Of a DNA stretch of 64,000 bases, positions 28,673 through 31,099 are shown in pieces. How positions within the stretch are numbered: position 1 is the stretch's first letter; the number at the start of each line of letters is the position of its first letter. The notes under the pieces were generated by a model. That model worked only from the letters and a program-made list of their open reading frames with translations, was not told where the DNA came from and did no database searches. The stretch is taken from the NCBI RefSeq assembly GCF_003589925.1, contig NZ_CP032382.1:6758001-6822000 (forward strand), in the 5' to 3' direction. A program made the translations under genes and the position numbers. Source of the stretch: Chryseolinea soli (GTDB lineage Bacteria > Bacteroidota > Bacteroidia > Cytophagales > Cyclobacteriaceae).

Positions 28673-28701
28673 TTAGACACAACCATCCGTTAAAAGGTTG
28701 G
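28673..28701 (-). promoter_or_regulatory. ECF-sigma-type promoter before the LVIVD lipoprotein gene
   Basis: Read on the minus strand: -35 CCAAC (28701-28697), 16-bp spacer, -10 GTGTCTAA (28680-28673). This matches the element before the sigma gene (31078-31050) in both boxes and in spacing. The expected start of transcription is about 28666, giving a leader of about 20 nt. It lies in the gap after the anti-sigma-like gene. Confidence 0.75.
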
Positions 28702-28706
28702 ACAGG

Positions 28707-30491
28707 CTAGCGAAAAATGTAGCGGAACCGGAGGCCCACATCAAAGGTGAGCGGCGTGGACTGAATACCGATGTCGGACTTGTAGACGGAATTGATAGGA
28801 TAGCGCAATCCCGGGTTCAAAGCAAGCCTGTAACGTTGTCCGAATTTGTAACTCAATTCTGTTCCCATTAGTCCGCTAAAATTCACCGACCGATACGGTG
28901 AATCGTCCCCTCTTCCCTGGGTTGTCTTATCTAAACTGCCACCCTCGGGAGTTATTGTATTCTGGAGGAACAAATCCGTCGACAATCCCGCGTTCAGTTG
29001 GAGTCCGAATTTCTTGTTGATCACCAGATAGCCTGCCTGCACCGGCACGCTCACAAATTGAACATTGTTGTTTACCGTATACGGGAAGGTGCCGGCCACC
29101 TTACTTCTGGAACTTGCATCCGCAGACTGCGACTGCTGGGTGATATCTCCATACGACGCATTGATGGACTCCGCCTTGAGTGACTGGAAATTGTCCTGCA
29201 CCACCACGCTGTTAGCAGTATAGTTAGAGGACTGCGTGAGGTAGTTCACCCCCCCTTGAATCAGCCACCGTTTCGAAAGTTTTGCTCCCATACTCACGCC
29301 AACCGAGTACGCGACGCCCGACGCTTTGGCCTGCTTATCGGCGACGTTACTGCCATTGGAGGCTGGGCTATTGAACGCAGCTAAGCTTGCAGAAGTGCTA
29401 GGTGAAACACTGCTATTCATCGAGTTAAACCCACCTGCCGCAAACCCAACGGACGTCCACAACCTTTCCGACTGCTGCTGCTTTTCCTTCTTATCCTCGG
29501 CCGCGTAGGCTTCTTCTTTCAATTTCAATTCCCGCAGCATCTTCTCACCCGGATCGAGTTGATTACCAGGGAGCTTTAAACCCGGAGTCTTCATCTTATA
29601 GAAGGAAGGCAATTCCCGGTCGGTAAACACAAACGGCCTGTAGCTATTCCATTCCGTCTCCGATGAGGCTAAAGCCTGGTTCTGAGTGGCGAAAACGTCT
29701 TGTTTGGCTACTTTTTGGTTATTCGATTCTTCATTTATTACATCCTTATAATCAGATGATTGAATAGTTGTAGATAAAGCCAAAGATGAAGATTTTTCAA
29801 GTGAAACCGCATTTTCTTCTGCCATTCTGGAGGCATTCGACTTCGAATCAAGCACCCCATTTTTCGGATTTGTCACACCCCGATTCGCTTTTTGAGACGC
29901 TTCTGCCGTCGCCAAAGCGGGCTGGCCAGCTTGAACCGATTCGGATGTCAATTGATCTTTATCATTGATTGTCTGTGACTTAACCGAAGCCTGGAGCGTC
30001 CCAGTTTCCTTTTTTACGGGAGCACTCTTCTTGGCTTGAGCGATCAGGATATCCCCATCACGCGATGTCTCCGGTCTGAATGAAGCATCGTCGCCCTCCT
30101 CCGAGCCGTTCACCGTTTCATTACTATTTTTTAATATATCTTTTTGATTATCAGATATTTCAACCGATTCACTTGTAGTTTTATCAGAAGACAAAGTTTC
30201 TTCTCCACCAGACGTGCCTTCCGTGCTGTTGATGGCCAAGGTATTGCCCCCTACTCCAGCGTCATTCTTCGTTACGGCATAATAGCCGACACCTGCCACA
30301 CACATAGCGAAAGCAACCGAGGCGGCTGCCACCAGTTTATAGAAGACGATCCTGCGGCGCATCTTTTCGCCCTCAGCGCGTTCCAGGTCCAGCTCGATGT
30401 TTGTCCATACCGTTTCGGTCGGACTCGCCTCGGCGCCCGAAAATGCGTCCTTTACCGCATCCTCAAATTTTCGCCTCTCCATATCGTTCAT
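28707..30491 (-). CDS. Putative dual membrane-spanning anti-sigma factor (N-terminal anti-sigma region, C-terminal outer-membrane barrel)
   Basis: The 594-aa protein starts with a short charged cytoplasmic segment (residues 1-45; ERRKFEDAVKDAF and a Trp-containing helix VWTNIELDLERAEGEK), followed by one transmembrane helix (about 49-71). A long Ser/Thr/Lys/Glu-rich, low-complexity periplasmic linker (about 75-340) follows. The C-terminal about 250 residues read as a beta-barrel (LWTSVGFAAGGFN, GVSMGAKLSKRWLIQGGVNYL, FVSVPVQAGYLVINKKFGLQLNAGLSTDLFL, split strands, ending LTFDVGLRFRYIFR). This order matches the dual membrane-spanning anti-sigma factors described in Bacteroides. It overlaps the ECF sigma gene by 29 bp. 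The start could also be ATG 30482. Confidence 0.72.
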   Translation of the reverse strand: MNDMERRKFEDAVKDAFSGAEASPTETVWTNIELDLERAEGEKMRRRIVFYKLVAAASVAFAMCVAGVGYYAVTKNDAGVGGNTLAINSTEGTSGGEETLSSDKTTSESVEISDNQKDILKNSNETVNGSEEGDDASFRPETSRDGDILIAQAKKSAPVKKETGTLQASVKSQTINDKDQLTSESVQAGQPALATAEASQKANRGVTNPKNGVLDSKSNASRMAEENAVSLEKSSSLALSTTIQSSDYKDVINEESNNQKVAKQDVFATQNQALASSETEWNSYRPFVFTDRELPSFYKMKTPGLKLPGNQLDPGEKMLRELKLKEEAYAAEDKKEKQQQSERLWTSVGFAAGGFNSMNSSVSPSTSASLAAFNSPASNGSNVADKQAKASGVAYSVGVSMGAKLSKRWLIQGGVNYLTQSSNYTANSVVVQDNFQSLKAESINASYGDITQQSQSADASSRSKVAGTFPYTVNNNVQFVSVPVQAGYLVINKKFGLQLNAGLSTDLFLQNTITPEGGSLDKTTQGRGDDSPYRSVNFSGLMGTELSYKFGQRYRLALNPGLRYPINSVYKSDIGIQSTPLTFDVGLRFRYIFR

Positions 30492-31020
30492 AGTACGTTG
30501 ATTCCTTTAATAACTTGGCCTGCAACAGGCTCTTGGCTCGCGCAAACTGCGACTTCGATGTCCCCTCCGATATCCCCAATGACTCTGCTATTTCTTTATG
30601 GCTGTAGCCCTCGATGGCAAATAGGTTGAACACGATCTGGCATCCCTGTGGCAGGGCTTGGATCATCTCCAGCAACTGGGTGAAGTGGATCCCGGAAATG
30701 CTCATCTCTTCTTCGGGAAGATTGATCTCTGCCACGTCTACCATGGGATAGAGGTATAGTTTTTTGCGCTGAACATTAAGGGCTGTGTTCACCATAATGC
30801 GCGTGATCCAGGTCTCCAACTTTGCTTCCTGGCGGAAGTCCTTTATGCCCTGAAATACTTTTACAAACCCCTCTTGCAGAATGTCTTCCGCTTCGGCAGT
30901 TGTTTTCGAATAACGGAGGCATACGACCAGCATTTTTCGGCAATAGCGGTCATACAAAGCCTTTTGGAAAGCCCTGCTGCCTTTGCGACATCCCTCAATG
31001 AGTTCCTGTTCGCTGAGCAT
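30463..31020 (-). CDS. ECF-type RNA polymerase sigma factor
   Basis: The 185-aa protein has sigma region 2 (FQKALYDRYCRKMLVVCLRYSK, EDILQEGFVKVFQGI and ETWITRIMVNTALN, about residues 18-82) and region 4 (LPQGCQIVFNLFAIEGYSHKEIAESLGISEGTSKSQFARAKSLL, split helices, about 124-168) without region 3, as in ECF/sigma-E factors. The last codons overlap the anti-sigma-like gene, a typical sigma/anti-sigma arrangement. An element CCAAC-N16-GTGTCTAA lies upstream and suggests autoregulation. Confidence 0.94.
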   Translation of the reverse strand: MLSEQELIEGCRKGSRAFQKALYDRYCRKMLVVCLRYSKTTAEAEDILQEGFVKVFQGIKDFRQEAKLETWITRIMVNTALNVQRKKLYLYPMVDVAEINLPEEEMSISGIHFTQLLEMIQALPQGCQIVFNLFAIEGYSHKEIAESLGISEGTSKSQFARAKSLLQAKLLKESTYYERYGEAKI

Positions 31021-31049
31021 GTAACTCTATCGTTCCGCCATTTTACACA

Positions 31050-31078
31050 TTAGACACCAGCATTAACGGAAAAGTTGG
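31050..31078 (-). promoter_or_regulatory. ECF-sigma-type autoregulatory promoter before the sigma gene
   Basis: Read on the minus strand: -35 CCAAC (31078-31074), 16-bp spacer, -10 GTGTCTAA (31057-31050). The predicted transcription start near 31043 leaves a leader of about 23 nt before the sigma ATG at 31020. The same element recurs at 28701-28673. Confidence 0.78.
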
Positions 31079-31099
31079 AAATGGTTATCTTTAACGCCA

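Follow-up and report, generated by a model that had tools for sequence, protein, structure and literature searches.

A predicted barrel-ended anti-sigma factor of Dma/Reo type beside an ECF sigma factor in a Cytophagales genome, with a predicted promoter and a predicted lipoprotein-rich regulon

Results

An ECF sigma factor gene overlaps the gene of a barrel-ended membrane protein

We analysed a 64-kb stretch of DNA (hereafter the window) from a genome that is assembled as a single contig of 8.24 Mb and is 99% complete. Two minus-strand genes that overlap by 29 nt encode an ECF sigma factor and a 594-aa protein whose closest named relatives are from Chryseolinea, a genus of the order Cytophagales (Table 1). 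Pfam identifies an outer-membrane barrel (PF13568) in the 594-aa protein, and the FecR family is absent among the Pfam and NCBIfam matches listed for it up to E 1. A sequence search of solved structures with the full protein gave nothing significant (best E 0.33). For the sigma factor, only the general sigma70-ECF model passes the cut-off among the 25 of 114 NCBIfam matches listed, a model set that does not include ECF21. No protease gene was found between or beside the two genes. The initial annotation of the window had described an ECF sigma factor paired with an anti-sigma-like protein predicted to span both membranes, and the analysis confirms this observation. The layout as such has been reported before, in both Bacteroides and Phocaeicola (PMC13088901, PMC9308784, PMC13114119).

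Table 1. Features of the window and of two further loci of the source genome
Feature	Position	Strand	Evidence
ECF sigma factor gene, 185 aa	30463..31020	-	Sigma70_r2 and Sigma70_r4_2 above Pfam cut-offs; anti-sigma gene adjoining in relatives too
Dma/Reo-type anti-sigma factor gene, 594 aa	28707..30491	-	layout, Pfam, predicted structure
N-terminus, residues 1-46, predicted cytoplasmic and predicted sigma-binding	30354..30491	-	conservation, P-x4-W-x2-[ILM]
Single inner-membrane helix, about residues 48-71	30279..30350	-	hydropathy; helix 26-77 in predicted structure
Disordered periplasmic linker, residues 73-313 (241 residues)	29553..30275	-	predicted structure, alignment
Helix ahead of barrel, residues 314-337	29481..29552	-	predicted structure; mean majority 0.61 over 314-340
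Eight-stranded outer-membrane beta-barrel, residues 340-594	28710..29474	-	PF13568; eight long strands in predicted structure; OmpA/NspA alignments
Predicted promoter for sigma/anti-sigma genes	31050..31080	-	0 mismatches; 29 nt ahead of start codon
Second predicted promoter, ahead of propeller-lipoprotein gene	28673..28703	-	1 mismatch; 27 nt ahead of start codon
Beta-propeller lipoprotein (predicted target), 447 aa, with lipobox LLEG-C35	27302..28645	-	predicted structure pLDDT 84.2; propeller alignments
Probable operon partner of lipoprotein gene, small secreted protein, 199 aa	26713..27312	-	11-nt overlap; ORF
Split system: sigma, inner-membrane anti-sigma candidate, secreted barrel-type gene	L025:2111-4479 (C1:4266000-4270700)	-	own genome
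Further fused anti-sigma candidate (650 aa) beside sigma	L031:1207-4598		own genome; Pfam barrel

Architecture of the 594-aa protein

Hydropathy, Pfam and the predicted structure agree with the initial annotation on a short N-terminus, one membrane helix, a low-complexity linker and a C-terminal barrel, the last of which appears in the structure prediction as eight long strands forming a barrel in the model. Conservation along the protein was assessed in an alignment of 60 sequences, comprising the window protein and 59 of 120 listed homologues (309 were found), chosen by hand for spread. Apart from the barrel, the best conserved part is the stretch ahead of the helix, residues 1-46 (mean majority 0.79), in which W29 is invariant and P-x4-W-x2-[ILM] is present in 55 of the 60 N-termini. 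The last barrel strand is the best conserved element (0.97). Conservation of the linker is low (mean majority 0.18 over residues 73-287), its length ranges from 132 to 317 residues across the 60 sequences, and its predicted structure has a pLDDT below 50 over residues 77-290. Its computed contour length is ~84 nm. To judge from the alignment, the linker sequence drifts between conserved ends.

Conservation of the locus

According to the genome records, the order OLA1-like GTPase, conserved gene, divergent type IX secretion system (T9SS) plug gene, sigma gene and anti-sigma gene is kept in 21 of 22 loci; the 22nd (L005) starts within the anti-sigma gene and belongs to the same MAG as L023. The plug gene adjoins in those 21 loci, and OLA1 and an ABC protein are kept likewise. 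A homologue of the propeller lipoprotein follows the anti-sigma gene in 17/22 loci (four by short matches), and a homologue of its 199-aa partner is present in 12/22. At the level of the order, 34 of 194 genomes have a match to the family profile (the source genome included), and a sigma gene adjoins the anti-sigma gene in all 29 loci returned from other genomes. Twenty larger order-level stretches contained the sigma gene in 20 cases, a propeller-gene homologue in seven and the plug gene in one, the latter in a genome of the same family. The lasting unit is thus the sigma/anti-sigma pair, with the propeller lipoprotein as a frequent companion and the T9SS plug as a family-level neighbour. The plug gene of the window is on the opposite strand and begins 79 bp away from the sigma gene; the region that they share (31021-31099) probably contains the start signals of both.

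A predicted promoter for this sigma factor

Comparison of upstream sequences yielded a predicted promoter motif, TTCCAACYTTT-N12-GTGTCTAA. It has two sites in the window, where 0.02 are expected from 64-kb shuffles, the motif having been built from these very sites; both point away from the plug gene. Ahead of the sigma gene, the best match departs from the motif at 0-3 positions in 20 of 21 loci, at four in the remaining one, and always lies 26-31 nt from the start codon. After the anti-sigma gene, the motif occurs with 0-4 mismatches in 17/21 loci, and 16 of these belong to the 17 loci in which a propeller gene was detected. As a control, 387 pieces from the same loci gave no match at up to five mismatches.

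With limits of three mismatches for the source genome and two for its relatives, the source genome contains 12 sites, eight of them with at most two mismatches, and a reversed-motif control gave none. A spacer one base shorter gave one site (a shifted true one) against four in its control, and a spacer one base longer gave six (one a shifted true one) against five. Window shuffles scaled up predict ~2.6 chance sites per genome at three mismatches and the spacer-variant controls gave four and five, so perhaps 3-5 of the 12 sites are due to chance; the eight with at most two mismatches are safer and some of the four weaker ones may be false. Six genomes of the genus have 37 sites at up to two mismatches versus one for the reversed control, and as these genomes are related neither their conserved sites nor pooled p-values count as independent evidence. 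Among 23 genomes outside the genus there were 12 sites versus six in the control; 20 of all 29 genomes searched carry an anti-sigma relative. By eye, GCAACC...GGGTC, which has the same AAC/GTC core, precedes the sigma gene in 6 of the 20 order-level stretches, and several others showed no clear site there. Other ECF sigma factors of the source genome may read similar sites.

The predicted regulon is rich in lipoproteins

We examined 53 motif sites and excluded from the gene counts the seven that had no downstream ORF within 150 nt. An ORF starts within this distance of 11 of the 12 sites in the source genome, at 13-31 nt in nine cases. Under a strict lipobox rule, lipoproteins are encoded by 6/11 of these downstream genes and by 20/38 in the six genus genomes, compared with 9/287 in a rough background set (longest ORFs, several starts tried). 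Without the two motif-defining sites, the proportion in the source genome is 5/9, and outside the genus three of eight further downstream genes encode lipoproteins by the same rule. Relaxing the lipobox rule after the sequences had been viewed gave 26/38, a figure without a matching background count.

Four targets are predicted in all six genus genomes, namely the sigma factor, the beta-propeller lipoprotein, a 240-aa lipoprotein without a Pfam match and an FKBP-type isomerase lipoprotein (FKBP_C), whose site has two mismatches in each genome. Further targets in the source genome are a polysaccharide deacetylase lipoprotein, a SIMPL-domain secreted protein, a small secreted protein and small lipoproteins without a Pfam match. 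Neither a PUL-type gene nor a NigD match was found among the eight targets scanned with Pfam. The regulon may consist of a fixed core and a changing rim. Several small lipoproteins behind the motif, with no assigned function, each occur in only one genus genome.

The model of the 447-aa lipoprotein supports a propeller fold and nothing narrower. Foldseek returned many BamB chains for it, but a second alignment was topped by WD40-type propellers with no BamB in its 50 rows, and we rejected this identification, along with LVIVD and choice-anchor B assignments that fell below the cut-off. The FKBP lipoprotein was likewise considered as BamJ, an identity that the best 60 of its 155 sequence matches, which include no BAM entry, do not support. 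The sequence alignment of the propeller lipoprotein comprised the window copy and 13 of 17 homologues, excluding short matches. The 199-aa partner has a weak match to a barrel-type family (PF13505, E 0.12), which is below the cut-off.

Related sigma factors adjoin fused, split and short partners

A census of the 60 highest-scoring of the 80 sigma region-4 matches in the source genome revealed three loci at which the sigma gene has a long partner downstream that may end in a barrel: the window locus, L031 and L043. The L031 partner (650 aa) has a Pfam barrel and a membrane helix that falls below the hydropathy threshold, and the L043 partner (566 aa) has a detected helix and lacks the Pfam barrel; profile comparison of the two with the window anti-sigma family gave no significant match. 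In a tree of 55 of these sigma factors, those of the window locus, L031, L043, L025 and L037 form one supported group (100/99), within which the three with fused partners do not form one clade. A single origin for these three is unsupported by the tree, on which the fused label changes twice, with one change in only 4% of bootstrap trees.

The L037 partner is a 178-aa protein without a barrel. At L025 the gene after the sigma gene encodes a membrane protein whose tail is of low complexity, and 6 nt further on lies a gene for a separate secreted barrel-type protein. This last protein has relatives in 28/29 genomes, and a related sigma gene is present at 18/20 such barrel loci, in one case through a short match. 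In the frames after the L025-type sigma gene, 15/17 loci showed by eye a P..W pattern resembling that of the 594-aa protein, a count made without pattern-based choice. The N-terminus alignment is partly circular, because its split-form rows were picked by a pattern requiring P and W or R; the P..W pattern also aligns with other partners, with a shorter P-W spacing in L031. Thus one sigma group adjoins fused, split and short anti-sigma candidates, and their presence in one genome is a natural experiment on the need for a physical tether.

The L025 anti-sigma frame is broken at an A run, between the putative sigma-binding part and the membrane helix, and is open in five genus copies (L194-L198); the break may be a sequencing error, a slippage site or a real loss. 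No clear motif copy was seen by eye in about 100 nt upstream of the L031 sigma gene. Downstream of the candidate L031 anti-sigma gene lies one that encodes SprB repeats and a cytochrome-type domain.

Discussion

A proposed envelope-stress system and its alternatives

We propose, with a probability of roughly 0.75, that the pair is a cell-envelope stress system of Dma/Reo type with a lipoprotein-rich regulon. Residues 1-46 would keep the ECF sigma factor bound at the inner membrane, and the slack disordered linker would tie them to a predicted OmpA-like barrel in the outer membrane. A barrel that is unassembled or disturbed, or that has been pulled or severed from its tether, would free the sigma factor to transcribe its own operon from the promoter at 31050-31080, predicted from conserved sites, together with a small predicted regulon of beta-propeller, 240-aa, FKBP-type isomerase and several small lipoproteins. 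As the anti-sigma gene is within the activated operon, this would provide negative feedback. The initial annotation had suggested a Cytophagales version in which the sigma factor reads the outer-membrane state directly, without a protease-cascade partner in the operon. Its sigma/anti-sigma pair, Dma/Reo layout, Cytophagales genome and lack of an adjoining protease gene all stand; direct reading is possible, and proteolytic release, by proteases encoded elsewhere, fits equally.

Regulated proteolysis releases the sigma factor in RseA- or FecR-type systems. Here a periplasmic protease would cut the linker and an intramembrane protease would free the N-terminus, with the barrel acting in localisation or as a cleavage trigger. 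We consider this to have slightly less than an even chance; it is compatible with the rest of the proposal above and departs from it in how the sigma factor is released. A disordered linker of 241 residues would be an easy protease substrate, and its unconserved sequence is as expected if length and flexibility alone matter. The periplasm is some 25-35 nm wide, across which a ~84 nm linker would be slack; this argues against a simple pull and was counted in favour of proteolysis. However, no protease gene was found beside the pair in the window or in the 22 loci, and sequence alone cannot separate proteolysis from other modes of release. We also considered that the pair is a dedicated T9SS regulator, given the divergent plug gene 79 bp away that adjoins in 21/22 loci. 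This is very improbable: only 1 of 20 order-level stretches, from the same family, has the plug close to the pair, on which ground we rejected the link; other neighbours (OLA1, ABC protein) are kept along with it, and both sigma sites point away from it. It is equally hard to credit that the 594-aa protein belongs to the ordinary outer-membrane barrels, its N-terminal helix serving only for export anchoring and the sigma factor being regulated by another protein. PF13568 proteins are indeed common, with 17 matches in the source genome, but no other part outside the barrel is as well conserved as residues 1-46, the P..W pattern is shared with anti-sigma candidates beside related sigma genes, and the sigma gene overlaps in the window and adjoins in 29/29 order-level loci.

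A further reading, which we regard as unlikely, is that the barrel itself senses barrel assembly: as a BAM substrate, it would keep the sigma factor bound for as long as BAM is able to insert it. Upon BAM failure its unassembled end would be recognised or cut, and the sigma factor would raise the levels of surface lipoproteins with a supporting role in assembly, so that a single protein would complete the loop. The conservation of the last barrel strand (0.97) is in keeping with this, and the FKBP-type isomerase and beta-propeller lipoproteins predicted as genus-wide targets are of the protein kinds represented by BamJ and BamI in the BAM complex of Bacteroidota (PMC12578637). Furthermore, bacteroidetocin A inhibits BamA, and Phocaeicola ecfO-reo is among the genes most induced under Bd-A (PMC13114119, PMC9308784). 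On the other hand, the propeller aligns best with WD40 proteins and the FKBP lipoprotein has no BAM entry among its best 60 of 155 matches.

Comparison with known systems

We judge the system to be genuine, well conserved and of a known kind, its protein type having been described from gut bacteria; this work adds a predicted promoter, a predicted regulon rich in lipoproteins and the series of fused, split and short partners. The barrel-tethered layout is now placed in a Cytophagales genus, with a readable promoter and a conserved list of predicted targets. In Bacteroides thetaiotaomicron, Dma1 and Dma2 pair with the ECF21 sigma factors Das1 and Das2, and their loss is reported to cause hypervesiculation (PMC13088901). 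As far as that source describes them, they share with the 594-aa protein an N-terminal sigma-binding region (predicted here), one membrane helix, a long disordered tether, a C-terminal barrel and an adjoining ECF sigma gene (PMC13088901). The present system differs in its Chryseolinea-type genome, the T9SS plug gene as a family-level neighbour and the absence of a PUL-type gene from the eight scanned targets. Membership of the Dma family is supported by layout and not by measured homology. EcfO-Reo of Phocaeicola has the same layout, governs NigD surface lipoproteins, with three NigD paralogues in its regulon, and responds to envelope toxins (PMC9308784, PMC13114119). From what those reports describe for Phocaeicola vulgatus and Bacteroides, the likeness extends to a barrel-ended anti-sigma factor across both membranes, a proposed envelope-stress signal and lipoproteins in the regulon; in contrast, the eight targets scanned here include no NigD match, and the FKBP isomerase and beta-propeller lipoproteins are predicted targets. 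If the lipoprotein regulon is true, it and the Phocaeicola NigD regulon would point to a Bacteroidota-wide theme in which envelope lipoproteins are controlled under outer-membrane stress.

Literature searches listed no title on such a system in Chryseolinea; the search that named the genus gave one paper, about plant-growth bacteria. In the E. coli sigma-E/RseA system, too, an envelope sensor acts over an autoregulated ECF sigma factor, and an FKBP-type isomerase, FkpA, is a target. Unlike the Chryseolinea protein, RseA has neither a barrel nor a long tether, and the separate proteins DegS and RseP sense and cut.
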